A DNA stretch of 43,350 bases. Source: Patescibacteria group bacterium (GTDB lineage: Bacteria > Patescibacteriota > Minisyncoccia > Minisyncoccales > UBA5738). Shown piece by piece: positions 3,970 through 27,337 of this stretch (the stretch's first letter is position 1; each line of letters opens with the position of its first letter). The stretch spans positions 140,707-184,056 of the forward strand of contig JAKLGH010000002.1 of NCBI GenBank assembly GCA_022710775.1, in the 5' to 3' direction. The notes below the pieces were generated by a model that was not told the origin of the DNA, made no database searches, and was given only the letters and a program-made list of their open reading frames with translations. Both the position numbers and the translations under genes were made by a program.

Positions 3970-4041
3970 GCGGGTGTCGTATAATGGCCATTATGGTTCC
4001 TTCCCAAGGAACAGACGAGGGTTCGATTCCCTTCACCCGCT
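3970..4041 (+). tRNA. tRNA-Gly(CCC)
   Basis: Cloverleaf: acceptor GCGGGTG/CACCCGC; anticodon arm GTTCC-TTCCCAA-GGAAC with anticodon CCC; T arm GAGGG-TTCGATT-CCCTT; discriminator T. The gene is followed by CAT, not CCA. Its 3' end is the insertion point of the element at 4038-10768. When the two element edges are joined in silico the tRNA regains ...CCCGCTCCA, so integration appears to have removed an encoded CCA tail. The minus-strand recombinase gene ends inside the acceptor stem. Confidence 0.93.
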
Positions 4042-5493
4042 CATAGAGATAAATTCGGCTTTTTTCGCCGACAACGACCACGGATTTTGAAGCGAAATCA
4101 AGGGTTTTTGACCGGTAATGCGGAAGTCCGAGCCGATCTTTTTAAGCAAGCTCCGTTTTTCCTCCAAATTTTCACTTTCCGCGATGGAATTGGCTTGAAA
4201 AGCCTGTAAGATCCACTCTTTAAAGAGTCCGAGCCGAACATTTCCCTTCCGTCCAAAATTTTCGACCTCCTCGTTGATCTCAACCCTGCGGTTGAGAAGT
4301 TTTTGCTTTTTGGCGGCGTATTCTTCGCGGTTGATAGCTTGGTCAACGTAAATATCCAAAAGACGGTTCAGTTTTGCCTCAATGATTTTCAATTCCGCTT
4401 TTAAATTTTGGGCGGAAGCATTGGCGTTAGTTGAAAAATCTTTAAAATCTTTTTCCCATCTGTTAAGAAAATAATTTTTCAACTCAACGCTTAAAGCAAC
4501 TTTTTGAAAAAGTTTATTCAATTGCTGGGTTAGGTTCTGCTCGCTGATATATTTTTGCGCGCAAACTCTATTTTTCTTGGTACAACGGTAATAGGTATAG
4601 GTTTTGCCGGAAGGCTTAATTTTTGTTTCGGCAGTGATCTGGCGGCCACATTCGCCGCATTTAAACACGCCTTTAAAAGTATAAGATTTCAAACTCTTTT
4701 TCTGCGGTTTTCCCCGTTCCTGCATTACGCGCTGAACTTTTTCAAAAAGTTGTTTGGAAATGATCGGCTCGTGATTTCCTTGATAAAGTTCGCCTTTAAA
4801 GCGAAACAGGCCGTAATAAAACGGATTTTTTAGCAGGGTCTGGATTTTGGATAGGGTAATGGCTTTGCCCTTCCTCTGACCGGCCAAGCCCATTGCAAAA
4901 GACAGCTCATGCAAATCTTCAAAAGTGTATTTTCCCGAAGAGTAAAGCTGAAAAATCTTTCTGACTATCTCTGCTCTTTGCGGATCTTTGATAATGGTGT
5001 GATGGCGCAACTCGTTTAAATATCCGATAGGGGCGAAGGCCGGATAATCTCCTTTTCTTAACTTTTGGCGCAGGCCGCGCTTTACATTCTCGCTAAGGTT
5101 GTCAATGTAATACTTTGATTGGCCGAAAGCGATATTAAGCATAAACTTTCCTTGCGGCGTTGCGTCAAACCAAAAGGTAGGGAATTTTAAGCCGCCGATC
5201 TTGCCGGTGTCCACAAGGTAGATGATTTTACCGCCATCAACAGAATTGCGGGCCAGCCTGTCCGGGTGCCAGCTTAAAATTCCAAAAGGCCCGTCAGCTT
5301 CTATTCTGGCGATCATCTGGTTGAATATCGGACGGCCCGGAACTTTGGCGGTTTTAGCCTCGATAAATTCATCGGCAATCTCCAATCCTTCTTTAGAGGC
5401 AAACTCTTTTAGCTCCGTTAACTGGGCTTCAATGCTTAGGATTTGGCGATCATCTTCGTCCGTGCTTTTTCTGGCGTATATAAGATATTTCAT
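4033..5493 (-). CDS. Large serine recombinase/integrase
   Basis: 486 aa. N-terminal resolvase catalytic domain with YARKSTDEDDRQ (nucleophile Ser10) and the SWHPDRLARNS motif. Recombinase domain follows (about 165-270), then a zinc ribbon CGECG...YYRC...C (about 275-310) and a long C-terminal coiled-coil region. This is the large serine integrase layout; such enzymes join short attP/attB sites through a 5'-phosphoserine link. The last codons (MSG-stop) are supplied by the tRNA-Gly acceptor stem. The related 3' end at 5519-5711 shows a longer native tail, SDFYEKVRTFFLDGNS. The attachment core GAGCG therefore lies inside the coding sequence, and integration has replaced the tail. Probably the integrase of this island. 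Confidence 0.93.
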   Translation of the reverse strand: MKYLIYARKSTDEDDRQILSIEAQLTELKEFASKEGLEIADEFIEAKTAKVPGRPIFNQMIARIEADGPFGILSWHPDRLARNSVDGGKIIYLVDTGKIGGLKFPTFWFDATPQGKFMLNIAFGQSKYYIDNLSENVKRGLRQKLRKGDYPAFAPIGYLNELRHHTIIKDPQRAEIVRKIFQLYSSGKYTFEDLHELSFAMGLAGQRKGKAITLSKIQTLLKNPFYYGLFRFKGELYQGNHEPIISKQLFEKVQRVMQERGKPQKKSLKSYTFKGVFKCGECGRQITAETKIKPSGKTYTYYRCTKKNRVCAQKYISEQNLTQQLNKLFQKVALSVELKNYFLNRWEKDFKDFSTNANASAQNLKAELKIIEAKLNRLLDIYVDQAINREEYAAKKQKLLNRRVEINEEVENFGRKGNVRLGLFKEWILQAFQANSIAESENLEEKRSLLKKIGSDFRITGQKPLISLQNPWSLSAKKAEFISMSG

Positions 5494-5518
5494 TTCCTTT
5501 TTAAAAATAAAAATGAAT

Positions 5519-5711
5519 TGTGAAAATTTGGAGGAAAAAATCGGCTCCCGTCTTTTTAAAAATAATTCAGTCAGACTTCCGCATTGCCGGCCAAAAACCC
5601 TTGATTTCGCTTCAAAATCCGTGGGCGCTGTCGGTGAAAAAAGCCGAATTTATCTCTATGAGCGACTTCTACGAAAAAGTTCGGACTTTCTTTCTTGACG
5701 GAAACAGCTAA
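5519..5711 (+). pseudogene. Recombinase 3' fragment carrying an attP-like site and the native C-terminal tail
   Basis: Matches the 3' end of the recombinase at 4033-5493 in inverted orientation: ENLEEK, then SDFRIAGQKPLISLQNPWAL and KKAEFISMS, with small indels at the 5' side. It continues past the core GAGCG (5660-5664) into DFYEKVRTFFLDGNS and TAA 5709-5711. It has no catalytic domain. Its start lies 26 nt from the start codon of the intact gene, so the recombinase is enclosed by an imperfect inverted repeat (about 4041-4175 versus 5519-5660). It is the best available record of the uninterrupted recombinase C-terminus. Confidence 0.75.
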
Positions 5712-5895
5712 AAGCTGTCTAAAATTGCTCTGTGTTTTTGTTGTATCTCTTTCAAGCCAAAGACGCAACTTTATGCCCCCGACTAGGCTTCGCTTGGCCC
5801 TCTCTGGCGTACCTCCGAGGGCCGGCGCTCGCAGACCGGCAGCCGGCTTGGGAATCGGGCTTGGCACAACGCATTTTAGCCGAAAAGATGGGGGG
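5660..5895 (+). repeat. 236-bp inverted repeat, left copy (structured repeat A)
   Basis: Essentially identical, reverse-complemented, to 10538-10773. It starts exactly at the attachment core GAGCG and ends in a run of six G. It contains the recombinase tail codons, a spacer, then the structured-repeat core (about 5771-5895: GCCCCCGACTAGG, GGCCCTC/GAGGGCC arm, GGCTTGGGAATCGGGCTT, GCACAACGCATTTTAGCCG). With the right copy it encloses the defence genes. The rest of this interval up to 6025 is an AT-rich promoter region. Confidence 0.88.
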
Positions 5896-5969
5896 AAAGG
5901 GGGAAATTGGTCAATTTTTGTAAGAAAATTATATATTTAATCGAATTTTAAACAAAATATTGTTAAATA

Positions 5970-5999
5970 TTGACATATAATACTATATTCTGGTAGTAT
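5970..5999 (+). promoter_or_regulatory. Sigma70-type promoter for the AAA/RloB/DpnI operon
   Basis: TTGACA at 5970-5975 and TAGTAT at 5994-5999 with an 18-nt spacer, in AT-rich DNA 26 nt before the ATG at 6026. A TATAAT also lies directly after the -35 but is too close to pair with it. Confidence 0.7.
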
Positions 6000-6025
6000 T
6001 AAAGCATAAAAGGTAAATAACGAAT

Positions 6026-7240
6026 ATGATACATTCATTTTCATGCAAAAATTTTTATTCGTTTAAAGATTTAGCAACAGTAAATTTTGTTGTTAATGAA
6101 AATGCGCCCAAAGATAATGGGTATTTTGTGTCATCTGCAGAAGAAAGACTCTCAAAGGTGGAAGTAGTTATTGGGCCAAATGCTTCGGGGAAAACCAATT
6201 TACTCAAAGTATTACCATTTTTAAAATGGCTTATTGTTGATTCTTTCAAACTTAATCCTACGGCGCCCATAACCGTAAAACCTTTTTTGTCCAATGTGGG
6301 TAAAGACAAGCCCATTGAATTATCTGTTGAGTTTGAAATTGAGGGCAAAGTTTATGTTTATAGTTTCAAATTGAATGAAAAAATAATATTGTCTGAAGAA
6401 CTGAAGCTTAAAAGTAAAACAAAAAAGAAAACTACAAGCAAAAAAATATTTTCTCGCGAATGGATAGAAGCTGATAAAAAATATAAATTCATAGATCAAA
6501 AATTTAATGCTCCCAAGGGAATAGAAGACCTTTTAAGAACTAATGCAAGCGTGATTGAAAGCGCTATCAGGTTAAACCATAAAGAGAGCCAAGATATAGC
6601 TAGATATTGGCAACAGATAGCAACGAATGTAATCGAGGCAGGATGGGTGGGGGATTTTGTAGGGATGCCGAGCCCAATGGTTCAATTAGTGGAAACATCC
6701 ATCTTTTTTAGTGAAAATGAGAAATTGAAAAAAGCGGCAGAAACCCTTCTCTCTAAATTTGATTTGGGGTTAGAGGCAATAGATATAAAAAAAGAAAAAG
6801 TAGAGGATCGTCTCAATATCGAAATTAAAGGAGTCCATTCCTTTAACGGCCAAAAACAGTCTTTGCTCTTTCAATATGAATCGTCTGGAACGAGGCAGCT
6901 TTTCGTTTTGTTAAAATCAATCTTGCAAGTTCTTGATCGGGGCGGCATTGCTATTCTGGACGAATTGGATGTTAACCTTCATCCGGAAATGGTTTCTTCG
7001 CTTTTGGATTTGTTTATTAACCCAGATACAAATCCAAAAAATTCTCAGATATTATTTAGTACTCATAGTCATCAAATATTAAACAGATTAGATAAATACC
7101 AAATTGTTCTTGTCGAGAAAAACGAAAATGGTTCAAGCGATTCTTGGAGGTTAGATGAAATGGCTGGAGTTCGCGCAGACGATAACTACTTTACTAAATA
7201 TATAGCGGGTGCGTACGGGGCGGTTCCGAAAATTAAATAA
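6026..7240 (+). CDS. AAA-family ATPase, RloA/AbiLi-type defence ATPase
   Basis: 404 aa. Walker A GPNASGKTN at about residues 48-57, a middle insertion, an ESSGTRQ signature-like segment (about 287), Walker B AILDELDVNLHP (about 308) and an STHSHQIL H-loop (about 345). The tail FTKYIAGAYGAVPKI is typical of ABC/AAA15-21 ATPases that pair with RloB proteins. The next gene is such a partner, 8 nt downstream. ATPase + RloB pairs occur in phage-defence operons (AbiL, RloAB) and are thought to gate a TOPRIM-like nuclease by ATP hydrolysis. It opens a run of tightly spaced genes ending with the DpnI homologue. Specific AbiL assignment is tentative. Confidence 0.82.
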   Translation: MIHSFSCKNFYSFKDLATVNFVVNENAPKDNGYFVSSAEERLSKVEVVIGPNASGKTNLLKVLPFLKWLIVDSFKLNPTAPITVKPFLSNVGKDKPIELSVEFEIEGKVYVYSFKLNEKIILSEELKLKSKTKKKTTSKKIFSREWIEADKKYKFIDQKFNAPKGIEDLLRTNASVIESAIRLNHKESQDIARYWQQIATNVIEAGWVGDFVGMPSPMVQLVETSIFFSENEKLKKAAETLLSKFDLGLEAIDIKKEKVEDRLNIEIKGVHSFNGQKQSLLFQYESSGTRQLFVLLKSILQVLDRGGIAILDELDVNLHPEMVSSLLDLFINPDTNPKNSQILFSTHSHQILNRLDKYQIVLVEKNENGSSDSWRLDEMAGVRADDNYFTKYIAGAYGAVPKIK

Positions 7241-7248
7241 AAATTATT

Positions 7249-7788
7249 ATGTCCCAACATCCGCCCGCAAAAAAGAATAGAGCTTCGAAAAGTACTTTTT
7301 TGATTGTTGGTGAGGGGTCACGTGATGTATTTTTTTTGAAATACCTCGATTCTCTGTATCTCCACAAGGATATTGTTTGGACGAAAATACTTGACGGTAA
7401 GGGCGGTACGGCTGACGGTATTGTAGATTATGCTAAGAGGCAATTAGGAGATTATCATAAAAAGATTGTAATGGTCGATAACGACAAGAAAGAGTCGGAA
7501 ATGCTGAAGGCCCGTAAAAAAGCATTGGAAGGAGGCATGGATTTAATCGAGAATACTCCTTGCTTGGAGGCATTGTTGCTTTCCATATTGAATGGCGGAA
7601 TTAGTTTTGAGGATAAAGGATCTCGTTGGTGCAAGAAAGAATTTGAATCTAAATATATAGACAAAAATAACCGACAAATCGTGCAGGAATTTGAAAAGAA
7701 ATTCCCTAAAAAACTTTTAAGCAAATTACGGAAAAAGATTCCAAAATTAAATCGTTTGATTTCTGTTTTTGAAGGGAAATATAAATGA
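7249..7788 (+). CDS. RloB/TOPRIM-like partner of the AAA ATPase
   Basis: 179 aa. The N-terminal strand-Glu motif FLIVGEGSRDVFFLKYL is followed by a DGKGG segment and MVDNDKK (Glu then Asp-x-Asp spacing as in TOPRIM folds). NTPCLEALLLSIL then matches the position of the RloB NPCFE-type motif. In ATPase/RloB pairs this subunit is the likely nuclease effector. The sequence ends in a basic region. Family membership is by motif and neighbour; catalysis is inferred. Confidence 0.68.
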   Translation: MSQHPPAKKNRASKSTFLIVGEGSRDVFFLKYLDSLYLHKDIVWTKILDGKGGTADGIVDYAKRQLGDYHKKIVMVDNDKKESEMLKARKKALEGGMDLIENTPCLEALLLSILNGGISFEDKGSRWCKKEFESKYIDKNNRQIVQEFEKKFPKKLLSKLRKKIPKLNRLISVFEGKYK

Positions 7789-7806
7789 TTAAGGTTAACA
7801 GATGAA

Positions 7807-8901
7807 ATGCAACAAGAAGAAGGCAAAGAAAATAAAATAAATGAAATTTATAATACCGGGTTTGTCGGTAAAGAATTAGAAAATTTAGCTGATAGCGCCA
7901 GCTCTTTTGTATCGCAAATAAAAATTCCTCACTCTTTAATTGATAGCTTAAATACGGCTAACGCCATTTCTCAAAGCTTAAGCGTGGCAATGCCTGACCC
8001 AAAATTATTCGAGAGCTATAATGGGGCCTTGGCACTTCAAAAAACCGCTTTAGAAAATTTTAGCTGTATTAATAAGGAATTAGAACCAATTAATGGTGCA
8101 TTTGCTAACATAATTGCGTCAGCAAGTGTTCCGATTGCGGAAATCGGTTTAGTTACTGCAAATGCAAATAGACTTTTAGACTTCGGTACTATCAGCGAAG
8201 ATAATTTTCTAGCTCTAGGGAAGGTGTCAAATTTGTGCTTAGATGCAATTAAAACGCAGCAAGAATCGTTAATTTTCGGATTACAGCAGATAAATGATTT
8301 TGCCAAAGTAACAGGAGGCACAGTTAGTAGCTTAACTTTACCTTTCCAGACAGTGAACAGTGGGATAGATCAGATTATGAGATCTGTCGATGGCTTCCCT
8401 GCAAATGTCTTGCCAGATTTTCAGGTTATAAGGCGGGAGACCTCCGTATCGGAAGAAGATTATCAGAGTTTGCTAGATCAACAATTAGAGGAAATAGATC
8501 CATCGCTGGCTAAATGTCGCCATGGATGTTGGAGTACTTTTGAAGCAAAAAAAGATGATTATATTGGGCAAGCGACCAGTTCTATGAGAAGATTGGTTGA
8601 TAAGTTTTTAAATATCGTTGCGCCTATTGAAGAGGTTAAAAAATCTTCTTATTATCAGGAAGCTGTAAAAAGTGGGGCTTCGGAAAAATCGACAAAGCGA
8701 AGAGCCAGAATATATTACGCGGTAAATTATGATTGCAAAAGAACAGAACATTTGCAGAGATTAACTAAAGGTTTTTTAGAAATTTACGATAATTTGAGCG
8801 CTTGGGATCATAATCCGACTAACGACGATCAATTTGTGCATGGCACATTTATGACAATAGAAGGTCTATTGCTTTCGATATTGTCTGAAATAAAAAAATG
8901 A
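7807..8901 (+). CDS. Protein with C-terminal pPIWI-associated-nuclease-like domain
   Basis: 364 aa. The first about 210 residues are helical, polar and unrecognised (rich in Ala/Ser/Asn). The C-terminal part, EEIDPSLAKCRHGCWSTF to QATSSMRRLVDKFLNIVAP, then the YDNLSAWDH and FVHGTFMTIEGLLLSIL segments, resembles the helical domain annotated as predicted pPIWI-associating nuclease (a HEPN-like fold). It overlaps the dpnI start by 4 nt (ATGA), implying translational coupling. The role may be an abortive effector or a partner of the upstream ATPase; this is inference. The domain name is recalled from family motifs, not searched. Confidence 0.55.
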   Translation: MQQEEGKENKINEIYNTGFVGKELENLADSASSFVSQIKIPHSLIDSLNTANAISQSLSVAMPDPKLFESYNGALALQKTALENFSCINKELEPINGAFANIIASASVPIAEIGLVTANANRLLDFGTISEDNFLALGKVSNLCLDAIKTQQESLIFGLQQINDFAKVTGGTVSSLTLPFQTVNSGIDQIMRSVDGFPANVLPDFQVIRRETSVSEEDYQSLLDQQLEEIDPSLAKCRHGCWSTFEAKKDDYIGQATSSMRRLVDKFLNIVAPIEEVKKSSYYQEAVKSGASEKSTKRRARIYYAVNYDCKRTEHLQRLTKGFLEIYDNLSAWDHNPTNDDQFVHGTFMTIEGLLLSILSEIKK

Positions 8902-9668
8902 TATTATCATTTGATAAGCAATTATCGGAAAAATACCATAGCCAATCGCAAAAAATTAGAGTTTTAACCGAAGGATGGGTTGATACTCAAATATTTTGTC
9001 CTAACTGCGGCCAAATAAAAATTGATAGGTTCAATAATAATAAACCTGTTGCGGATTTTTATTGCTCTAATTGCAAGGAGGAATACGAGTTAAAAAGTAA
9101 GAAGGATTCTATCGGCTCAAAAATTGTTGATGGTGCGTATCGCACAATGATTGAGCGTTTGTCGGAAAGCAACAATCCGAATTTTTTCTTGTTGAATTAT
9201 GATCTTGATAAATTTGAGGTAATTAATTTTTTAGTGGTTCCAAAGCATTTTTTTGTGCCGAGTATCATCGAAAAAAGAAAGCCACTTTCTGAAACCGCGC
9301 GGCGGGCTGGTTGGGTCGGTTGCAATATCTTGTTGCAAAATATTCCTCAATCGGGAAAGATATTTTTCATTAAGAATCGGGAGATTGAACCAAAGGAAAA
9401 AGTTATTTCTGAATGGAAAAAAACACTTTTCCTGCGGCAAGAGAAGGAAATTAATGCGAAAGGGTGGCTTTTGGACATAATGAACTGCGTTGAACGATAT
9501 AGAGGTAAAGAATTTTTATTGAATGATGTTTATACTTTTGAAAACGAATTAAGCATAAAACATCCAGATAACAAACATATAAAGGATAAAATCCGTCAGC
9601 AGTTGCAAGTTCTAAGAGATAACGGTTATCTCGAATTTGTCGAGAGGGGAAAATACCGCCTTCTATAA
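8898..9668 (+). CDS. dpnC: DpnI homologue: methyl-directed (Gm6ATC) type IIM restriction endonuclease
   Basis: 256 aa against 254 for pneumococcal DpnI, co-linear end to end. Zinc-site cysteines are C34, C37, C56 and C59. The PD-(D/E)XK catalytic residues are D53, E64 and K66 in VADF...YELKSKK. NPNFF and ARRAGWVGCNI follow, then the C-terminal winged helix with HIKDKIRQQLQVLRDNGYLEF. DpnI cuts GATC only when adenine is N6-methylated, so it attacks Dam-methylated invading DNA. No Dam-type methylase is seen in the window, consistent with a host that leaves GATC unmethylated. The start codon overlaps the upstream stop. One of the firmest calls here. Confidence 0.96.
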   Translation: MILSFDKQLSEKYHSQSQKIRVLTEGWVDTQIFCPNCGQIKIDRFNNNKPVADFYCSNCKEEYELKSKKDSIGSKIVDGAYRTMIERLSESNNPNFFLLNYDLDKFEVINFLVVPKHFFVPSIIEKRKPLSETARRAGWVGCNILLQNIPQSGKIFFIKNREIEPKEKVISEWKKTLFLRQEKEINAKGWLLDIMNCVERYRGKEFLLNDVYTFENELSIKHPDNKHIKDKIRQQLQVLRDNGYLEFVERGKYRLL

Positions 9669-9672
9669 ATCT

Positions 9673-9864
9673 ATGGAAATTACAATTATGCCTTTTTTGG
9701 CAAAGCTGTTTTTAAGAATTAATCCATCCAAGAAAGTTTTGATAATGTGCCGCGGTTATAGTGAAGATTTTGATAATTTTACAGAATTGGTTTGGGAGGA
9801 TGATAAATATTTGGATTTTTTCGATAAAAATTCATACCCGCAATTCCAAGTTTGGATTTTGTAA
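9673..9864 (+). CDS. Small hypothetical protein (63 aa)
   Basis: ATG 4 nt after the dpnI stop. Sequence begins MEITIMPFLAKLFLRINPSK, then a Phe/Trp/Asp-rich stretch (YSEDFDNFTELVWEDDKYLDF). No motif recognised. Position and spacing suggest it belongs to the dpnI operon, but its length and lack of family make it uncertain. Confidence 0.4.
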   Translation: MEITIMPFLAKLFLRINPSKKVLIMCRGYSEDFDNFTELVWEDDKYLDFFDKNSYPQFQVWIL

Positions 9865-9880
9865 TTTTTTAAGTGCTATT

Positions 9881-10132
9881 ATGAATATCAAAAATAAGAA
9901 AATCGCTGTTTGGGAAAAAGGCCAAGATACTACTTATGTTAATTGTGAATTTGAAGGGGGTGATATAGGACTTTTGGATGAAGGTAAAAGAACTACTGTT
10001 ATTAACAGCAAGGCAAAAACCGCAAACAGGATAGAAAAATCGAAATGGCACGGAACATGGTGGGGAAAAATAGCCATTGGCATAATAATAGGTGTGATAC
10101 TAATACTCATAAAATTTGCCATTCCAGAATGA
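9881..10132 (+). CDS. Small membrane-anchored hypothetical protein (83 aa)
   Basis: ATG at 9881, chosen because upstream residues of the longer frame look random. N-terminal polar region (NIKNKKIAVWEKGQDTTYV), a Gly/Asp segment, then one hydrophobic C-terminal helix (WWGKIAIGIIIGVILILIKF). C-terminally anchored small proteins are frequent in defence operons; no family recognised. Last gene before the palindromic repeats. Confidence 0.55.
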   Translation: MNIKNKKIAVWEKGQDTTYVNCEFEGGDIGLLDEGKRTTVINSKAKTANRIEKSKWHGTWWGKIAIGIIIGVILILIKFAIPE

Positions 10133-10182
10133 CGAGTTTAGAGAATGGATTTTGGCCAAAATTTGAGTATTTTAGCCTTCCC

Positions 10183-10237
10183 AAACTCTGCATTCCTTAG
10201 AATGCAGAGTCAATGCAGACCTAACTCAGACTTTTGA
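10183..10237 (+). repeat. Palindromic repeat R1
   Basis: ACTCTGCATTC-CTTA-GAATGCAGAGT (11-bp stem), followed by a third, partly decayed half-site CAATGCAGAC. Belongs to a family with members at 10428, 22417, 30070, 30140 and 30234, plus a remnant at 31148. Confidence 0.75.
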
Positions 10238-10408
10238 GCGTGAACTTTAGGCAGTATCCGGCCTTTACGACCGGCAGCCGCTAGCCTCGAATAAGGCAGA
10301 AATTTGGCCTTACCACCGGCAAGGCGTTGTTTTGCCAAGGTGCCACCTCTAACCTTGCCTTACCGCCAAAACAACGCCGTAGAATGAGGCTATACCTTTG
10401 ACCTGTCA
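10238..10408. repeat. Nested inverted repeats, no gene
   Basis: GGCGTTGTTTTG and CAAAACAACGCC (about 10324-10378) enclose CCAAGGTGCC...CCTTGCC. Part of this (GCAAGGCGTT-TTTTGCCAAGG) recurs at about 30370-30393 after the helicase gene. No credible coding sequence. Confidence 0.55.
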
Positions 10409-10660
10409 GCTTGGGAATCGGGCTTCTAAAAACTCTGCATTATTCCATATACTCTGCCACCTAAAAGTCTGCATTCTAGAATGCAGACATAATGCAGAGT
10501 AAATGCAGAGTTTTTAGCTGCACAACGCACACCTTCACCCCCCATCTTTTCGGCTAAAATGCGTTGTGCCAAGCCCGATTCCCAAGCCGGCTGCCGGTCT
10601 GCGAGCGCCGGCCCTCGGAGGTACGCCAGAGAGGGCCAAGCGAAGCCTAGTCGGGGGCAT
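10409..10660 (-). repeat. Structured repeat B, full-length multi-arm copy
   Basis: Outer stem GCTTGGGAATCGGGCTT (10409-10425) pairs with 10571-10587. Arm 1 is the R2 palindrome (10428-10515; outer AAAAACTCTGCATT pairs with AATGCAGAGTTTTT, with an inner perfect GTCTGCATTC-TA-GAATGCAGAC). Arm 2 is GCACAACGCA (10520-10529) with TGCGTTGTGC (10560-10569). Beyond the outer stem lies the GC-rich arm shared with copies A, C, D and F. The last 236 bp of the element (10538-10773) form the right inverted repeat. Confidence 0.82.
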
Positions 10661-10773
10661 AAAGTTGCGTCTTTGGCTTGAAAGAGATACAACAAAAACA
10701 CAGAGCAATTTTAGACAGCTTTTAGCTGTTTCCGTCAAGAAAGAAAGTCCGAACTTTTTCGTAGAAGTCGCTC
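10538..10773 (-). repeat. 236-bp inverted repeat, right copy, ending at attR
   Basis: Reverse complement of 5660-5895, identical as far as I can read. It ends at the core CGCTC (10769-10773); beyond it the sequence is chromosomal (CAGCTATAGG). It contains the recombinase tail codons on the minus strand, which integration separated from the rest of the recombinase gene. Confidence 0.88.
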
Positions 10774-17397: not shown

Positions 17398-17468
17398 TGC
17401 GGGATCGTCTAATGGTAGGACACAGCGCTCTGGACGCTGGTATCTAGGTTCGAATCCTAGTCCCGCAG
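17398..17468 (+). tRNA. tRNA-Gln(CTG)
   Basis: Acceptor TGCGGGA/TCCCGCA, anticodon arm CAGCG-CTCTGGA-CGCTG with anticodon CTG, T arm CTAGG-TTCGAAT-CCTAG, discriminator G as expected for tRNA-Gln. Followed by CTC, not CCA. Its last five bases begin the 288-bp direct repeat that bounds the arsenic island. Confidence 0.93.
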
Positions 17469-17750
17469 CTCTTCGTCGCCACCGCTCCTCAGAGCCTGCG
17501 GCCGCAAGGCCGAATAAAAAAAGCGACGAGACCCTGAACGAAGTGAAGGGCCATAGTCTTTTTCAGAGTCTTCGATGAATAATCTTGAGGAAGCGAACGA
17601 TTTAATCAAATACCGTATCACACCTATATCCTATAATTGCCGATAGGCGTTTTTATGTTGGCTGTACCGATGATTTGGGACATCGGGTGAAACAACATAA
17701 CGATTCAAAGGGGGGGCGCGCACTATACTAAATTCGTTAGGTCTTCGGCT
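17464..17750 (+). repeat. Direct repeat, left copy, with broken GIY-YIG gene
   Basis: About 95% identical by eye to 22683-22970. It begins CGCAGCTCTTCGTCGCC at the tRNA-Gln 3' end, contains an AGACCCTGAA/TTTCAGGGTCT-type hairpin and ends AATTCGTTAGGTCTTCGGCT. The remainder up to 17811 is AT-rich and empty. Confidence 0.9.
17574..17730 (+). pseudogene. GIY-YIG endonuclease remnant, copy 1
   Basis: ACC TAT ATC CTA (TYIL) and, one frame away, ADRRFYVGCTDDLGHRVKQH followed by NDSKGGRALY give the GIY-YIG N-terminal module (YhbQ/UvrC-like). It is interrupted by a frameshift after YIL and truncated downstream. Small GIY-YIG genes just downstream of tRNA genes are familiar to me from CPR genomes. 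Confidence 0.75.
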
Positions 17751-17811
17751 TTTTTATATAAATGCGTTAATCAATTCTATTTCAACTTCTTCCAAGGCAG
17801 CTAGCAAACTA

Positions 17812-17840
17812 TTGACAATACTATAATAATGTGATATTAT
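17812..17840 (+). promoter_or_regulatory. Promoter of the gene at 17861
   Basis: TTGACA at 17812-17817, 17-nt spacer, TATTAT at 17835-17840; GGAGGTG ribosome-binding site just before the ATG. Confidence 0.8.
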
Positions 17841-17860
17841 TATCAATTGCGGAGGTGTAA

Positions 17861-18169
17861 ATGATGGATTTTACATGGGTTGCAATCGCAACATTGGGCT
17901 TGGCAATACTTTCATGGGTTTTTGTGATTTGCGATAGAGCTTGGAAATTACACAAGGATCCCGGATTGTGTGTTTGGCCTCGTATTACGCATTGCAGGGT
18001 ATGCAATAAGCCTGTATATGCTTGGCAAAGACATGAGAGGAGAAATTTTGCAGTTGAATTGGATAATCCAGATAAACTTGCAGTTTCTATTACGACAGCA
18101 AGCGGTATTGTTCATTCAGCATGCAAAGGAGTGCCAGTATTTAAAGCCGGTGTTCGCTTGGTTCATTAA
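17861..18169 (+). CDS. Small membrane protein with zinc-knuckle-like Cys pairs (102 aa)
   Basis: ATG preceded by GGAGGTG. One N-terminal transmembrane helix (WVAIATLGLAILSWVFVI, about 5-23), then a soluble domain with HCRVCNKP (about 46) and HSACKG (about 87), a possible single zinc site. No family recognised. Sits alone between the left direct repeat and the arsenic operon, with its own promoter and a hairpin terminator downstream. Confidence 0.65.
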   Translation: MMDFTWVAIATLGLAILSWVFVICDRAWKLHKDPGLCVWPRITHCRVCNKPVYAWQRHERRNFAVELDNPDKLAVSITTASGIVHSACKGVPVFKAGVRLVH

Positions 18170-18256
18170 CTAGCTTTAATGCTGCACTTTTTTATAAATT
18201 AAAAAATAGCCAAAATTGTTCTAGATAGCCAGCAATTTTCGCTCGATTGGCACAAA

Positions 18257-18286
18257 GCTTGTCTGAATGACAAGTTTTATTTTACA
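18257..18286 (+). terminator. Terminator-like hairpin
   Basis: CTTGTC-TGAAT-GACAAG followed by TTTTATTTT. The reverse strand resembles a half-decayed R-type palindrome. Confidence 0.6.
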
Positions 18287-18305
18287 TAAAGGCGAAAATT
18301 GGGCA

Positions 18306-18384
18306 GAATTTATGTGAGGACCTACACAATTTTAATTTCACCTTCTAAATTGCCGACAATCATTAAAAACAGCCAAAATTGCCC
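18306..18384 (+). repeat. Direct repeat preceding structured repeat C
   Basis: About 78 bp starting GAATTTATGTGAGGACC, essentially identical to 23093-23166 before structured repeat E. In both places it runs straight into AAAATTGCCCCC and the structured repeat. Confidence 0.8.
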
Positions 18385-18552
18385 CCCGACTGAGCTCACT
18401 TCGCCCTTCCAAACGGTAGTTTGGCCGGGCTCCGCTCGCAAAGGGGCAGCCGCCCTTTTCAAAGGCGAGCCTCGCTAAAGGCGGGCCGGGCCGGAATTGG
18501 GCAGTGCACAACGCATTTTAGCCGAAAAGATGGGGGGAAAAGGGGAGAATTT
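18381..18552 (+). repeat. Structured repeat C
   Basis: CCCCCGACTGAGC ... CCAAACGGTAGTTTGG arm, GGGCTCCGCTCG, GGGGCAGCC, GGAATTGGGC, GCACAACGCATTTTAGCC, GATGGGGGG. The first about 65 nt fold as one imperfect hairpin (GCCCCC/GGGGCA, GAGC/GCTC, GCCC/GGGC, CCAAA/TTTGG). Faces the arsenic operon, with copy D inverted at its other side. The interval 18170-18640 holds no gene. Confidence 0.8.
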
Positions 18553-18564
18553 GTTTTATTTTCT

Positions 18565-18591
18565 GCGAAGCCAGTCGGCTTCGCTTTTTTT
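18565..18591 (+). terminator. Strong terminator at the end of structured repeat C
   Basis: GCGAAGCC-AGTC-GGCTTCGC followed by seven T. The same hairpin follows copy F at 27219-27238 but without the T-run. Confidence 0.85.
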
Positions 18592-18594
18592 GAT

Positions 18595-18640
18595 TTGACA
18601 GGTGTTTAAAATAATATAAAATATCAATATAGATTGATAT
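18595..18640 (+). promoter_or_regulatory. Promoter and ArsR-type operator of the arsenic operon
   Basis: TTGACA at 18595-18600 and an AT-rich -10 region (TATAAA at 18615-18620, a short spacer). The perfect palindrome ATATCAAT-ATAG-ATTGATAT (18621-18640) directly abuts the arsR ATG at 18641. No Shine-Dalgarno fits between them, so the message may be leaderless or nearly so, and the operator may overlap the transcription start. Confidence 0.7.
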
Positions 18641-18940
18641 ATGAAACCGGATTGTTGCAAAAATAACCGCCGCAAAGAGGAGGTCGCGCAGACCGCGGCG
18701 ATTTTGAAATTGCTGGCCGAAGAGAACCGGCTTAAGATCCTTTGCATTTTGCAAGGCGGGGAGCATTGCGCTTGCCAGATCATCAAGCATCTTGGCTTGC
18801 CGCAAAACTTGGTTTCGCACCATCTAAACAAATTAAAAAAAGCGGGATTGATCGAAGGCCGTAAAGAAGGCGTTTGGATTCATTATTCGTTAAGTTTGCG
18901 AGGCAAACAAATAACAAAAGAAGTATTTAAACTCATTTAA
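18641..18940 (+). CDS. ArsR/SmtB-family metalloregulator
   Basis: 99 aa winged helix: LKLLAEENRLKILCIL, then GEHCACQIIKHLGLPQN in the place of the ArsR ELCVCDL metal motif, then LVSHHLNKLKKAGLIEGRKE. Metal ligands could come from the CxC in HCAC and the N-terminal CC pair (MKPDCCKN). Such proteins leave the operator when they bind As(III) or a thiophilic metal. It is the first gene of a six-gene same-strand operon and lies on its own palindromic operator. Confidence 0.9.
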   Translation: MKPDCCKNNRRKEEVAQTAAILKLLAEENRLKILCILQGGEHCACQIIKHLGLPQNLVSHHLNKLKKAGLIEGRKEGVWIHYSLSLRGKQITKEVFKLI

Positions 18941-18944
18941 TATT

Positions 18945-19382
18945 ATGCGCAATTTACTGATCCAATGGGTACATTTAACCATTAATGGAAAAACTTGCCA
19001 GCGTTGTTCGGATACCGGCAAAAATATAATGGAAGTAATCGGCGATTTGAAAAATGACCCCCGTTTTAAGGAAGTTGGTCTGGCTTTCGGGGAATTGGAA
19101 TTGCCGCCGGATGAAATAAGCAGTTCCAACGAGATCCTTTTCAACGGCGTACCGATAGAAAAATTTATCGGCGATGCGGCGATTGGAGAAAGTCCTTGCC
19201 GGTCGTGCTCCGATCTTTTGGGCAAGCTGGTAAATTGCCGGACGATTTGCCGCGGCCAAGAAATTTTGGAAACAATCCCCAAGGAGACCATTCGGGAAGC
19301 CATATTGAATTGGCTGGAGGGAGATAAGAATCAGGACATTTCGGGCTGTTGCCCCTGCGGCGGAGATTGCGGCTGTCTATAA
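18945..19382 (+). CDS. DUF2703 thioredoxin-fold protein with C-terminal Cys cluster
   Basis: 145 aa. IQWVHLTINGKTCQRCSDTG (Cys pair at about 18/21), ILFNGVPIEKFI and SPCRSCSDL...CRTI match DUF2703, a domain often found in arsenic gene clusters. It ends DISGCCPCGGDCGCL, a Cys-rich tail that recurs almost exactly on the next protein. The tail may bind metalloid or pass it between partners; that is inference. Starts 4 nt after arsR. Confidence 0.82.
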   Translation: MRNLLIQWVHLTINGKTCQRCSDTGKNIMEVIGDLKNDPRFKEVGLAFGELELPPDEISSSNEILFNGVPIEKFIGDAAIGESPCRSCSDLLGKLVNCRTICRGQEILETIPKETIREAILNWLEGDKNQDISGCCPCGGDCGCL

Positions 19383-19398
19383 TTTTTGAAAAAGCATT

Positions 19399-19704
19399 AT
19401 GGAAAACAAAATCAAATCTATCGAGGTTATCGGTTCGGGTTGCGCCAATTGCAAGAAATTGCATGAGCTGGCGGTTGCCGCCGTTAAAGAATTGAATCTC
19501 GGCGTTAAAGTCGGGTATTCCGACGACATTCAAAAAGCGTTGGCGATGGGGGTAATGCAACTTCCAGTTCTGGCGGTAAACGGCCAAGCGATTTTGACCG
19601 GCTCCGCGGATTTGGAGAAAATTAAAAAATCCTTAAGAGAACAAGGCGGCGAGGAGGATATTTCGGGCTGTTGCCCCTTCGGCGGCGATTGCGGCTGTCT
19701 TTAA
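19399..19704 (+). CDS. Thioredoxin-like small redox protein with the same Cys tail
   Basis: 101 aa. IEVIGSGCANCKKLHELA gives a CxxC active site (about residues 15-18), and a cis-Pro region follows at MQLPVLAVNG, as in the TM0996/MTH895 redox-disulfide family. It ends EEDISGCCPFGGDCGCL, differing from the DUF2703 tail mainly at one residue (F for C). A shared tail on two adjacent, different domains implies a common partner or duplication of the tail. Confidence 0.85.
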   Translation: MENKIKSIEVIGSGCANCKKLHELAVAAVKELNLGVKVGYSDDIQKALAMGVMQLPVLAVNGQAILTGSADLEKIKKSLREQGGEEDISGCCPFGGDCGCL

Positions 19705-19718
19705 CTTGAGATAACACT

Positions 19719-20699
19719 ATGGATATTTTTTCACCGATTCAGGCGTTTGCCGATTTGGCCGTTAATAACTGGCTTGGCATTACCAACGAATACTGGGCCA
19801 ACGCCATAAATTTTTTTATTTACGACACGATCAAGATCGGCCTGCTTCTGGTTGTCATCAACTATTTAATGGCAATCGTCCGCTATTATCTGCCGGTGGA
19901 GAAGGTGCGCGATATTTTGGCCAGCCGCAAATGGTACGGATTGGATTATTTTTTGGCGGCGATGCTGGGAACAATAACTCCGTTTTGTTCCTGTTCGTCG
20001 ATTCCGCTGTTCGTCGGATTTGTGGGAGCCGGGATACCTCTGGGAGTGACTTTTTCTTTCCTTATCGCCTCGCCTTTGGTAAATGAAGTCTCGCTATTCA
20101 TTTTTCCTTCGATATTTGGCTTGAAAATGACTGTCTTGTATAATGGCTTGGGAATTTTGGTCAGCGTTTTGGCCGGTATGGCGATCCAAAAATTAAAATT
20201 GGAAAAGAGCGTCAATCCGGCGTTTCTGCAATATAAAACCCGGCAGGACGCGATAAAGGAAAACGGCGGGCATAAAGTGCCTTTGGCAAAAAAGATCGCC
20301 ATATGGCGGCAAGACGCTTGGCATATCACCAAAGAGATCTTTCCTTATGTGCTTTTGGGAGTGGGTATCGGCGCACTTATCCACGGATTTGTACCGCGGG
20401 ATTTTGTGGAGAATAACTTGTCGGCGGCGGATTGGTGGGGCGTGCCTTTGGCAACGATCTTGGGCTTGCCGCTTTACGCCAATTCGGTGAGCGTGCTTCC
20501 AATAGTGGAGGCGTTGACCGGCAAGGGCGTGCCGCTGGGCACGGCATTGGCATTTATGACCGCCACGGTTACGCTGTCGATCCCGGGTTTGCTCATACTG
20601 AAGAAAGCGATGGACTGGAAATTACTTTCGGCATTTGTTGCGACTACCAGCATCGGCATTATTATGATGGGCTATTTCTTTAATTTAGTTAAAATTTAA
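19719..20699 (+). CDS. ArsP/DUF318-type permease
   Basis: 326 aa with about 8-9 hydrophobic helices. The first half contains TPFCSCSSIPLFVGFVGAG (about 88-106) and the second half the related LPLYANSVSVLPIVEAL. These paired motifs and the CSCS cysteines are typical of the ArsP_1 permease family, known to export trivalent organoarsenicals or related metals. Third effector gene of the operon, 14 nt after the redox protein. Confidence 0.88.
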   Translation: MDIFSPIQAFADLAVNNWLGITNEYWANAINFFIYDTIKIGLLLVVINYLMAIVRYYLPVEKVRDILASRKWYGLDYFLAAMLGTITPFCSCSSIPLFVGFVGAGIPLGVTFSFLIASPLVNEVSLFIFPSIFGLKMTVLYNGLGILVSVLAGMAIQKLKLEKSVNPAFLQYKTRQDAIKENGGHKVPLAKKIAIWRQDAWHITKEIFPYVLLGVGIGALIHGFVPRDFVENNLSAADWWGVPLATILGLPLYANSVSVLPIVEALTGKGVPLGTALAFMTATVTLSIPGLLILKKAMDWKLLSAFVATTSIGIIMMGYFFNLVKI

Positions 20700-20710
20700 C
20701 GGCAATAGAA

Positions 20711-21202
20711 ATGAAAAAATTTGCCGCAATCTTAATAATTTTGGGAATTATCGTTGCTTTAGGAGCAATGTCAGCAATTCCCAAAAAATCTGCGGAAAAT
20801 ATTTTGGATACTGTTTCAAATCCTCAACAAAAAGATACCGGTAATATGTCGATTGCTGTTACGCCTGCCCAAAAGGTGGAGGTGTTTTTATTCCATCGCA
20901 CGCAAAGATGCACCACTTGCATTGCCATTGGCAAGTTAAGCGGTCAAACAATTGAAGAACAATTTGCCCCGGAGGTTATAAACGGCAAGGTGATATTCCG
21001 GGAAGTGAATATTGACGAGCCGGAAAACAAAGCTTTGGCCGAAAAATTTCAGGCCAGCGGTTCCTCTTTATTCATCAATGCAATCCGCGGCGGAAGCGAC
21101 AACATTCAAGAAGATGTTAATGTGTGGCGTTTGACCGGCGATCAAGTTGCTTTCAAGAATTATCTGGCGGGTAAAATTAACGGCCTGTTGGGAAAACAAT
21201 AA
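20711..21202 (+). CDS. arsF: ArsF-like membrane-anchored thioredoxin-fold protein
   Basis: 163 aa. An N-terminal anchor (KKFAAILIILGIIVALGAM) and a linker are followed by VEVFLFHRTQRCTTCIAIG with a CxxC (about 71-74), and FREVNIDEPENKALAEKFQ. This matches what is annotated as the ArsF family (nitrophenyl compound nitroreductase subunit), found next to ArsG permeases. Its stop overlaps the next start by 1 nt. Confidence 0.75.
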   Translation: MKKFAAILIILGIIVALGAMSAIPKKSAENILDTVSNPQQKDTGNMSIAVTPAQKVEVFLFHRTQRCTTCIAIGKLSGQTIEEQFAPEVINGKVIFREVNIDEPENKALAEKFQASGSSLFINAIRGGSDNIQEDVNVWRLTGDQVAFKNYLAGKINGLLGKQ

Positions 21203-21900
21203 TGGATATTTTAAACGCATTGATCGATGGTAATGCTATTCCCGCGCTAACCGCTTTTTTGCTGGGCATTTTAACATCGATCAGCCCGTGTCCTTTGGCG
21301 ACCAATGTCGCCGCCGTCGCTTATCTGTCGAAAAATTTAAAAACGGTAAAAAACACTTTGGCCAATGGCGCGTATTATGCTCTTGGCCGCGCGGCCAGCT
21401 ATACCTTGCTGGCAATTTTGATCTATTACGGATTATCCGCTTTCCAAATCTCGAAATCCGTCCAAGGTTTGGGCGAAAAGCTGCTTGGTCCGCTGCTTAT
21501 ACTTATGGGCTTGGCAATGCTCGGCGTTATAAAAATCAAACTGCCGTCAACCGGTGGCAGATTGGAAAAAATCAAACTTTGGCTCACGGATAAAGGAGGT
21601 CTCGGCGCGTTTTTGCTGGGAGCATTGTTCGCCTTGGCGTTCTGCCCATACAGCGCCGTGCTTTTCTTCGGGGCGCTGATCCCGCTCGTGATGGAATCAT
21701 CCGGCGGGTTGCTTCTGCCGCCTTTGTTCGCTTTGGGAACAGGTTTGCCGGTGATCGTTTTTTCCTTCTTAATTGCTTTCAGCGCGCAAAAGCTTTTGAC
21801 GGCTTTCCAAGCGATGCAGAAAATCGAAAAAGCCATGCGCTATATAGTGGCCTTTATTTTTTTAGCGATCGGCGCTTATTGCCTTCAATTTTTGTTTTAA
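21202..21900 (+). CDS. arsG: ArsG-like CcdA/DsbD-type transporter
   Basis: 232 aa, six or more hydrophobic helices. SPCPLATNVAAVAYL (about 31-45) and LAFCPYSAVLFFGALIPL (about 146-164) are the paired Cys-Pro motifs of the CcdA/DsbD fold. In this neighbourhood it fits the ArsG family, described as exporting aromatic arsenicals with ArsEF. Electron relay to the redox proteins is the alternative function. Last gene of the operon. Confidence 0.78.
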   Translation: MDILNALIDGNAIPALTAFLLGILTSISPCPLATNVAAVAYLSKNLKTVKNTLANGAYYALGRAASYTLLAILIYYGLSAFQISKSVQGLGEKLLGPLLILMGLAMLGVIKIKLPSTGGRLEKIKLWLTDKGGLGAFLLGALFALAFCPYSAVLFFGALIPLVMESSGGLLLPPLFALGTGLPVIVFSFLIAFSAQKLLTAFQAMQKIEKAMRYIVAFIFLAIGAYCLQFLF

Positions 21901-21907
21901 ACGGCGA

Positions 21908-22005
21908 AAGGAGGTCGCCCGGCCTTGCGCTCTTTGACGATAGGAAAAGTGCGTTTTAAAAGTCCCGCCCCAAAGCGGGATTTTTAAAAGACGGGCGGCC
22001 TCCTT
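21908..22005 (+). terminator. Operon terminator nested inside a longer inverted repeat
   Basis: Inner TCCCGC-CCCAAA-GCGGGA with flanking A and T runs (21957-21986). Outer arms AAGGAGGTCGCCCG (21908-21921) and CGGGCGGCCTCCTT (21992-22005). Confidence 0.8.
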
Positions 22006-22019
22006 GAGTTGAACCCAAG

Positions 22020-22370
22020 CCGGAAATTTTCGGAAAGGCTTTTGCGATTTAGCAAAAGACTTTCGGGAAAAGCGGAGGAGCAAAAACCGTAGAGGCCGGA
22101 GGCGGAAAATATCAAGGTCCGTGATAACGGTACTTGATATATGGCAAAGCCGGTTTGCGCCGGAGGCATCGTTAAGCGGTTTTTGCGGGGGAGCGGTTTC
22201 CGGCGTGAGCTACCGCTTGCCTTGACCTTTAGGCAGGGAGTCGGGCATTTCGAGGGCAGCCGCGGAAAGGCTCAAAGCTTGGGATGGGCACAAACCAGAG
22301 GCGCTGTTTCCCTGTAAGCCCGGAGTGGGCGGTACGCCGCCCACGGAGGGGAAACAGCGCCGGAACAAGG
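22020..22370. other. Gene-free, densely self-complementary region
   Basis: Consecutive hairpins and nested pairs: 22027-22071 (CTTTTGC-GATTTA-GCAAAAG core); 22080-22089 with 22176-22185 (GCAAAAACCG/CGGTTTTTGC) enclosing ATATCAAG/CTTGATAT (22109-22140); 22300-22312 with 22348-22361 (GGCGCTGTTTCCC) enclosing GTGGGCGG/CCGCCCAC. No reading frame is supported. The pattern suits a structured RNA or a DNA-processing site such as a transfer or recombination origin. No known RNA family recognised. Confidence 0.6.
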
Positions 22371-22396
22371 TCTCAGAGCTTGGATTTGGCACTGAC

Positions 22397-22602
22397 CCGG
22401 CTCGAATTGGGCTCTTAAAAACTCGTCATTCCAGAATGTCGACTCAATGACGAGTTTTTAACCTGCCAACGCACACCTTTTTACCCCCACCTGCGGCTAA
22501 AATGCGTTGGCCTGAGCCCAATTCGAGCCCGGCTGCCCCTTTGCGAGCGCCGCCCTGGAGAACAGCAGTTCGGAAGGGCAAGCGACGCTCAGTCGGGGGT
22601 CA
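22397..22602 (-). repeat. Structured repeat D, full-length multi-arm copy
   Basis: Outer stem CTCGAATTGGGCTC with GAGCCCAATTCGAG (22514 onward). Arm 1 is the R3 palindrome (AAAAACTCGTCATT 22417-22430 with 22446-22459). Arm 2 is CCAACGCA (22466-22473) with TGCGTTGG (22503-22510). A GC-rich hairpin follows (GCCCCTTTGCGAGCGCC ... CTCAGTCGGGGG). Same architecture as copy B with different bases in the stems. Confidence 0.82.
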
Positions 22603-22682
22603 ATTTACCCTCAAATCCCGCTTCTTTACCCGATAGACAAGATTAGGTAAAATTAGCTCAAAGTTTGGTGTCATTTTACTAA

Positions 22683-22970
22683 CGCAGCTCTTCGTCGCCA
22701 TCGCTCCTCAGAGCCTGCGGCCGCAAGGCCGAATAAAAAAAGCGACGAAGACCCTGAACGAAGTGAAGGGCCATAATCTTTTTCAGGGTCTTCGATGAAT
22801 AATCTTGAGGAAGCGAACGATTTAATCAAATACCGTATCACACCTATATCCTATAATTGCCGATAGGCGTTTTTATGTTGGCTGTACCAATCATTTGGAA
22901 CATCGGGTGAAACAACATAACGATTCAAAAGGGGGACGCGCACTATAATAAATTCGTTAGGTCTTCGGCT
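22683..22970 (+). repeat. Direct repeat, right copy, with GIY-YIG remnant copy 2
   Basis: Mirror of 17464-17750 in direct orientation. The GIY-YIG remnant reads FYVGCTNHLEHRVKQHNDSK, closer to a functional family sequence than copy 1 (N and E at the usual positions), but with the same frameshift and two stops after GRAL. Together the two copies bound a 5.2-kb island containing the arsenic operon. 22603-22682 is AT-rich with no gene; 22971-23092 holds only a TTTGCTTGC-type inverted repeat. Confidence 0.88.
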
Positions 22971-23092
22971 AAATAGAAAAAACGAATAAGGTAATGAGGA
23001 ATAAAATGACGAAGCGAAAATTCCTTCCTTGCTGACTTTGCTTGCTTTAGCAAGCTTTGTTAAGTCAAAGAAAATTTAGGCCGAATTTATGT

Positions 23093-23200
23093 GAGGACCT
23101 ACACAATTTTAATTTCACCTTCTAAATTGCCGACAATCATTAAAAACAGCCAAAATTGCCCCCGACTGCGCTCAGGCCAACGCATTTTAGCCGAAAAGAT
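23093..23200 (+). repeat. Direct repeat plus internally deleted structured repeat E
   Basis: 23093-23166 repeats 18306-18384. It is followed by CCCCCGACTGCGCTCAGGCC and AACGCATTTTAGCCGAAAAGAT: the two ends of the structured repeat with the middle missing. It stops exactly where the truncated recombinase fragment begins (TTCGCAGCGG). Confidence 0.75.
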
Positions 23201-23376
23201 TTCGCAGCGGTCTCGTCTTTGAATGCTTTGAACGTTTGCGATTCAATAAGGGTTTCAACTATATTAAGTTGCTCTTTTACCGCAAACTCCTGCAATTCCG
23301 CCTTTTGAGCCTCAATAGATAAGACCTGTCTATCCGCTTCATCCGTTGATTTTCGACAATAAAGGAAATAGTTCAT
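23201..23376 (-). pseudogene. Serine recombinase N-terminal fragment
   Basis: Minus strand from ATG 23376: MNYFLYCRKSTDEADRQVLS, EAQKAELQEF, then TLIESQTFKAF. This is the start of the resolvase domain with catalytic Ser10, related to the intact recombinase at 4033. It breaks off after about 58 residues at structured repeat E; the remaining frame translates repeat DNA. A dead relic of an earlier integrase. Confidence 0.85.
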
Positions 23377-23380
23377 ATAA

Positions 23381-23437
23381 TTGACACAATTGGCAAAGGT
23401 TTGTTAAACTTTTTATAAAGTTATATTATTAAAGTTT
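23381..23437 (+). promoter_or_regulatory. Promoter and C-protein-like operator of the R-M operon
   Basis: TTGACA at 23381-23386 with a poor -10 (TTAAAC, 23404-23409, 17-nt spacer). AACTTT-TTAT-AAAGTT (23407-23422) and a further AAAGTTT at 23431-23437 lie just before the XRE gene. Repeated half-sites upstream of a controller gene are the usual C-box arrangement; the site assignment is inference. Confidence 0.5.
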
Positions 23438-23444
23438 TATCATC

Positions 23445-23654
23445 ATGTCAAAAGAAAGCTCAATTATAGGCGAGAATATAAAAAGACTTCGCCTTCAAAA
23501 AGATTTATCACAGGACAAGCTGGCGAGATTGGCCGATATTGCTTTCCCGACTCTTACAAAAATAGAATCCGGCGAAACACCGAACCCGACAATCGAAACA
23601 GTCAAAAAAATCGCAACAGCTTTAGGTGTTAGTATTGATGAACTAATGAAATAA
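23445..23654 (+). CDS. XRE-family regulator, likely R-M controller protein
   Basis: 69 aa, a single HTH_3 domain: IGENIKRLRLQKDLSQDKLARLADI, then FPTLTKIESGETPNPTIETV and KIATALGVSIDELMK. Size and position at the head of a restriction-modification operon match C proteins, which delay nuclease expression until the methylase has acted. Starts 8 nt after putative operator half-sites; the next gene begins 5 nt after its stop. Confidence 0.88.
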   Translation: MSKESSIIGENIKRLRLQKDLSQDKLARLADIAFPTLTKIESGETPNPTIETVKKIATALGVSIDELMK

Positions 23655-23658
23655 GGAT

Positions 23659-24270: not shown

Positions 24271-24274
24271 TTTT

Positions 24275-25315: not shown

Positions 25316-25323
25316 TATCTTTA

Positions 25324-25716: not shown

Positions 25717-25717
25717 T

Positions 25718-26827: not shown

Positions 26828-26883
26828 GGTTTAGTTGAGCTACGGAATATTTAACTTTGCTGGCATTTAGAAACTAAATAGTT

Positions 26884-27238: not shown

Positions 27239-27337
27239 TGAAATTGAAGATTGAAGTTAAAAGAGCTAAGCTACGCACAATAGGAAGTGTGGAACATATG
27301 GCAAACGGCAATTTTGCATATGAATGACACATAAACT

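Follow-up and report, generated by a model that had tools for sequence, protein, structure and literature searches.

A large serine recombinase (integrase) in the DNA analysed here probably carries out a form of integration that switches itself off. The window, i.e., the whole stretch analysed, comprised 43,350 nt from a Patescibacteria group bacterium (GCA_022710775.1, JAKLGH010000002.1:140,707-184,056, forward strand). The integrase's attP spans the final codons of the integrase gene itself, and a conserved C-terminal tail is lost when the element enters a tRNA gene; we propose that a second, inverted attP could restore the tail. Comparison of homologous loci indicates that the arrangement in the window belongs to a design shared across the family, whose hosts are very small bacteria, most of them uncultured.

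The features of the locus are listed in Table 1. The integrase ended in AEFISMSG followed by the stop, and its final GGG and TGA codons were antisense tRNA-Gly, in agreement with the preliminary description of this DNA. The 3′ end of the gene was repeated in inverted orientation (4038-4150/5552-5664; 113 nt, 87% identity). The plus strand at ~5519-5711 encoded AEFISMS followed by DFYEKVRTFFLDGNS and a stop, diverging from the integrase end at GAGCG/CGCTC (5660-5664 vs. 4038-4042). The preliminary description had recognized this reading and its point of divergence, and both held; however, the copy was not a separate neighbouring gene but an inverted one internal to the element. A third site had been overlooked: 10538-10773 was an exact inverted repeat of the 236 nt on the tail side and corresponded to attR. 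Because the chromosome restarted with CAGCTATAGG after the attR core, the empty site is predicted to have the sequence ...CACCCGCTCCAGC and to form a tRNA-Gly gene with encoded CCA. The element extended from 4038 to 10773 (~6.7 kb). On the integrase strand, the order was chromosome, T1, cargo, T2 (inverted), I′, integrase, I, tRNA, and all arms met at GAGCG. In silico joining of attL and attR gave attP I/T1 and a 500-codon integrase ORF ending AEFISMSDFYEKVRTFFLDGNS / FISMSDFYEKVRTFFLDGNS before the stop. The earlier claim that attP lies within the ORF and that integration swaps the protein tail was borne out; the tail lost is conserved, and the residues gained are target-derived. The 113-nt repeat, together with the same layout in ~128 homologous loci, indicates that the inverted-copy arrangement is not a chance product. 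With arm I′ decayed (87%), the element in the window may no longer have a working switch, even though its T1 and T2 were identical.

Table 1. Features of the tRNA-Gly element and its target (positions are those of the window)
Feature	Position	Strand	Basis or remark
tRNA-Gly(ccc), occupied target	3970..4042	+	ARAGORN; 3′ end = integrase last codons and stop, opposite strand
Large serine recombinase (integrase), integrated form, 486 aa	4033..5493	-	Resolvase 3e-19, Recombinase 8.5e-15, Zn_ribbon_recom 8.7e-08
attL core CGCTC/GAGCG, junction of integrase arm and tRNA	4038..4042	.	Sequence comparison, repeat analysis
Arm I, integrase gene 3′ end (half attP plus ~100 nt), repeated inverted at 5552-5664	4038..4150	-	Repeat search
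Arm I′, inverted copy of integrase 3′ end in integrase upstream region, somewhat decayed	5552..5664	+	Repeat search
Core GAGCG of internal uninterrupted attP copy (I′/T2)	5660..5664	.	Repeat analysis
Native tail DFYEKVRTFFLDGNS and stop after core, T2 copy	5664..5711	+	Translation; tail selection test
T2, attP tail side with flanking DNA (236 nt); T1 is its exact inverted repeat	5660..5895	+	Repeat search, 100%
T1, attP tail side at far end of element (attR); same tail, in frame with integrase after excision	10538..10773	-	Repeat search, in silico joining
attR core	10769..10773	.	Chromosome restarts with CAGCTATAGG
Cargo: AAA ATPase, AbiLi-like	6026..7240	+	AAA_21 8.6e-31; AbiLi 4.7e-75
Cargo: RloB/AbiLii-like protein	7249..7788	+	RloB 1.6e-4 (below cut-off); AbiLii 5e-09
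Cargo: predicted pPIWI-associating nuclease family protein	7807..8901	+	PF18165 4.8e-10
Cargo: DpnI-type methyl-directed restriction enzyme	8898..9668	+	DpnI 8.4e-83; mREase_II 4.7e-117
Cargo: small ORF, no family match	9761..10132	+	ORF list, domain search

The element carried anti-phage genes; its cargo included the AbiL-like pair, the nuclease-family protein and DpnI. A second island was present in the window at tRNA-Gln (17398-27240), with a direct repeat (17464-17750/22683-22970) that starts at the tRNA 3′ end. It contained T-like noncoding repeats, an integrase 5′ remnant (23227-23376, minus strand) and an attP-like tail remnant, LLNEIRTYYQQNLPN with its stop, near 27022-27069. Its cargo comprised a type II restriction-modification system and the candidates PDC-S57 and PDC-S53.

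A scan of genome contigs, samples of 380 phylum and 286 class genomes, and fetched regions yielded 166 distinct homologous integrases. Nearly all of these data came from metagenome assemblies. It is hardly credible, however, that the structure represents assembly artefacts or dead remnants. Inverted repeats do break short-read contigs, and many contigs stopped at the copies; nevertheless, the same structure was present in single-contig or near-closed genomes (L095, L100, L124, L125, L128, L140) and in the one isolate (L048, Schleiferia thermophila DSM 21410, a cultured member of Bacteroidota), and the integrase ORFs were intact. The presence of the element in this isolate (L048:4634-11442) opens the system to experiment; it had a cargo containing a methylase, as well as an inserted IS3-like gene pair. 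In the one-contig genome G167 (L124), two family integrases lay within 5 kb of each other in opposite orientation, at tRNA-Leu and tRNA-Gln.

Of the 166 integrase genes, 132 ended in antisense orientation at a tRNA or tmRNA gene, namely at its 3′ end. The targets of these 132 belonged to 19 types, i.e., 18 tRNA isotypes and tmRNA (L132, L143). Among the 94 integrases with a resolved core, none had a stop codon before the core, and the integrated tails were target-derived and arbitrary in sequence, with lengths from 0 to at least 133 codons. Thus, integrated homologues shared the core and then ran to different stops supplied by their targets, as the preliminary description had predicted. The integrated ORFs mostly remained open. 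An attR with a direct T copy and a shared core was found in 35 of the 56 elements having enough upstream sequence; the shared cores of these 35 were 2-8 bp long, and the crossover dinucleotide was not fixed. Element size ranged from 2.3 to 9.5 kb in a larger set of 41 elements, and the integrase was the sole universal gene. Three more distant paralogues in the window's own genome (C29; L152, L153, L154) also entered tRNA genes. An inverted copy of the integrase 3′ end was found for L153 alone of these, ~3 kb upstream, and for neither L152 nor L154.

The integrases showed the domain order of large serine recombinases (Resolvase N-terminal domain, Recombinase, zinc ribbon) with invariant R8, K9 and S10. 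An AF2 model of the L065 integrase contained long helices at 330-410 with a coiled-coil feature, and sequence comparison gave a match to the A118 integrase (2.5e-08; A118/LI type, PDB 4KIS, 6DNW). The zinc-ribbon motif TCGAA(C) mostly lay 17 nt past the end of the repeat in T (attP) and 12 nt past it in the antisense tRNA, where the motif corresponds to the T-loop. The attP-attB motif offset was 5 bp in 29 of 39 scored cases. In serine integrases, a 5-bp shift of the zinc-ribbon motif is the difference between attP and attB (Rutherford 2013, PMC3783163). The same shift with the tRNA T-loop serving as attB would explain why many tRNA species are targets.

The tail was encoded in frame, with its R motif present, by 82 of 86 upstream copies having sequence past the core; the preliminary description had anticipated a tail of this FYEKVRTFF type. 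In 77 of them, the R was the sixth codon past the core; the frame was closed by a stop at a median of 16 codons, and the motif resembled [AIV]RT[FYH][FY]. A helix was predicted in the tail of the L065 integrase at low confidence (pLDDT ~50). A codon-position entropy test of the tail (p 0.008 for 40 tails; 0.04-0.09 for 69 tails or thinned sets) was confounded by the att motif and was superseded by pN/pS. The latter was calculated for codons R+2 to R+8, beyond the att motif, in 65 tails, in each frame separately and with a post-stop control. The internal T2 copy was used; it is identical or nearly identical to T1 where both are known.

It is rather improbable that the tail is incidental, i.e., that attP overlaps the integrase end by chance and that tail conservation reflects only conservation of a DNA half-site. 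The most conserved tail codons, IRT/VRT, do coincide exactly with the TTCGAAC zinc-ribbon DNA motif, and inside the att motif, where the reading frame cannot be judged, the integrase frame was not favoured over frame +1 (0.70 vs. 0.61). Beyond the motif, however, constraint was confined to the integrase frame, where pN/pS was 0.34 (bootstrap 0.28-0.42); the other two frames gave 0.93 and 1.28, and the codons past the stop gave 1.07. NP[DEN] recurred in Gln, Ser, Ala and Phe elements, encoded by codons that differed in their third base. In five loci (L008, L100, L111, L119, L140) the Arg was encoded by AGA rather than CGA, so that the CGAAC motif was broken and the protein unchanged. These findings indicate that the tail is translated and is under purifying selection at the protein level. 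A functional tail is therefore lost on integration, and the free and integrated forms encode different recombinases, as had been suggested for the window. A translated, selected tail also implies that the integrase gene must at times be joined to T, whether in a circle, after inversion, or beside the T of another element.

One such junction was observed directly. Contig L055, a circle of 4585 bp whose ends overlapped by 51 bp, contained a 498-codon integrase ORF reading through the core into CFLDEVRTFFEQNDQ and a stop, in line with the circular form expected from the window; an N gap was present at the expected site of the inverted copy. Other candidates were set aside, and only L055 was counted. 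In L014, joining of the ends broke the integrase frame near the contig join. L057 and L065 were also rejected as free forms; the L065 tail belongs to another element in its genome, L060, and tandem insertion is the simplest account. These two elements of one Harrisonbacteria genome (L060, L065) provide a natural tail hybrid, one integrase with the other's tail. Searches for free copies gave no relative among INPHARED phages and one 29% match among PLSDB plasmids. In IMG/VR, one viral contig without the attP tail was found, and two degenerate core-plus-tail patterns matched nothing.

The inverted orientation of the second attP and its conservation in the family had, like attR, escaped the preliminary description; they suggest a possible inversion route to the native tail. 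In 128 of the 166 loci, the integrase 3′ end recurred inverted in the upstream region over at least 70 bp (median 119.5 bp, 98.9% identity). The upstream copy typically lay ~100 bp before the integrase start and continued in frame into the tail; where the core was resolved, most repeats overlapped the tRNA by 4-6 nt. In ~128 loci, the integrase was thus flanked by inverted I/core copies and formed a segment bounded by inverted recombination sites. Arm-I copies were closer within a locus than between loci in 504 of 516 pairs, indicating that the copies are homogenized by recombination (concerted evolution). In nine loci (L048, L050, L051, L053, L054, L055, L064, L074, L081), a 24-28 bp integrase coding stretch around GSNF was repeated inverted in noncoding DNA past the upstream attP, apart from the main repeat. 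In three distant members (L137, L143, L153), the copy was 1-3 kb upstream of the integrase rather than the usual ~100 bp, which leaves room for genes within the invertible arm.

A serious rival, to which we give a substantial chance though one short of even, is that the inverted attP is an operator at which bound integrase represses its own promoter without any inversion; tail loss may still matter in that case. The position of the copy close upstream of the integrase start, in examples between the integrase gene and a divergent XRE regulator gene, is consistent with an operator, and so is the near absence of flipped integrated elements. The integrase's own, tail-less end was at the tRNA in 132 cases and the I′ end in two (L037, L039); under 1:1 chance, ignoring relatedness, this bias has a probability of ~4e-37. 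Several observations fit an operator less well. The repeat, at ~120 bp, is far longer than a half-site of ~25 bp, and the integrase coding copies evolve in concert. The copy lies 1-3 kb from the integrase in the three distant members, and L037 and L039 were in fact flipped. The contigs of these two end inside the integrase 3′ end, where a restored tail in the integrated state is not directly readable. The 132:2 bias would mean either that integration uses the integrase-side attP only or that the flipped, tail-keeping state does not last. We favour the second reading.

In the mechanism that we consider probable, the free circle would carry an integrase gene running through the core into arm T and ending in the conserved tail of ~15 residues. 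The integrase, which would move the element, would recombine attP with the 3′ end of a tRNA gene, its zinc-ribbon domain reading the T-loop motif TTCGAA. Antisense tRNA would then follow the core, and the enzyme would lack the tail, its last residues coming from the target. Another complete attP (I′/T2) lies inverted just upstream of the gene. Loss of the tail may inactivate the integrase or alter its direction, so that integration would switch itself off; self-inactivation is the most likely effect. A crossover at the cores or arms of the inverted copies could flip the integrase gene and give it back the native tail from T2. The tail-less state would be a sink, because the enzyme able to leave that state would be gone. 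The full cycle, in which the element becomes trapped at the tRNA gene once the tail is lost and flipping of the integrase gene between the inverted attPs re-arms the enzyme, is proposed only tentatively, and we would sooner doubt it than assert it; in such a cycle, integrase-driven flipping would end of its own accord in the tail-less state, which would explain the 132:2 bias.

The tail might instead set direction without any loss of activity, the tailed enzyme performing attP x attB and the tRNA-tailed enzyme attL x attR, with the tail replacing a directionality factor. The small elements without a universal gene other than the integrase, and the mostly open integrated ORFs, are compatible with this. 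We nevertheless regard it as unlikely, since integrated tails were so arbitrary in sequence and length (0-133+ codons) and since a small XRE-type gene, found in roughly every second element, could itself serve as directionality factor. This gene, encoding a ~70-aa HTH protein and found in 21 of 41 elements, is a candidate regulator or directionality factor; it was divergent from the integrase just past the upstream attP in both cases inspected (L138; L048:9373-9585). For that reason the apparent lack of a directionality factor was dropped as support.

Very improbable is a further alternative, that the tail is a degradation tag cut off by integration, as in the integration-dependent immunity of mycobacteriophages. 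The logic is shared, with attP in a gene and a C terminus trimmed at a tRNA gene (PMC9262239). The tail ends, however, were varied (NPDAD, FAQNL, DGNS, KASGG, KNF) and by inspection none was LAA-like, and the integrated proteins gain target-derived sequence, which goes beyond mere loss of a tag. The preliminary description had drawn this analogy. It stands for attP within a gene and a tRNA target; its degron aspect fits poorly, as the tail has no obvious ssrA-like ending.

If self-inactivating integration is correct, a widespread bacterial serine family would represent a mild form of self-disruption with a selected tail. The family would provide a natural tail-on/tail-off pair for testing what determines the direction of serine integrases, an old question whose answer is of use in genome engineering, and would offer a route to tRNA T-loops as general landing sites. 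Recombinase proteins that end in antisense-tRNA peptides would be explained. The elements are also small carriers by which anti-phage systems move among Patescibacteria.

We know of no A118/LI integrase whose attP lies inside the integrase gene or that has an inverted second attP. Domain order and the 5-bp motif shift are common to the window family and these large serine integrases (PDB 4KIS, 6DNW; PMC3783163). In archaeal suicidal integrases (SSV/pTN3/pT26-2), attP is likewise in the integrase gene and integration alters the gene; the complete gene has been called its own directionality factor, and a review stated that self-disrupting recombinases occur only in archaea (PMC8371274). Those enzymes belong to the tyrosine recombinases, and integration splits them into int(N) and int(C), whereas the present one is a bacterial serine recombinase that loses only ~15 residues after the core. 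In mycobacteriophage integration-dependent immunity, attP lies in a coding gene, the target is a tRNA gene, and a C-terminal tail is removed (PMC9262239); the gene there encodes a repressor, the tail is an ssrA-like degron and the integrase is of the tyrosine type, whereas here attP is in the serine integrase gene itself. The nearest precedent for overlap of the integrase gene and attL is DsiB of the Dehalococcoides ssrA islands. Its 3′ end always overlaps attL with the stop outside the island, and its authors suggested that full function may be confined to the circle or to a position beside another island (McMurdie 2011, PMC3146451). The Patescibacteria-family integrase similarly overlaps attL with no stop before the core, including at tmRNA targets. 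DsiB, compared here by description rather than by sequence, has a single target (ssrA) in one genus, whereas the present family is tRNA-wide. The passages of the DsiB report considered here mention no conserved tail, selection test or inverted second attP, all of which apply to the present family. A literature search, mostly without subscription papers, found none describing the Patescibacteria family, a selected tail or an inverted second attP. Thus, a tail under selection and a second, inverted attP seem to be new; the overlap of attL with a serine recombinase gene was already known from Dehalococcoides.
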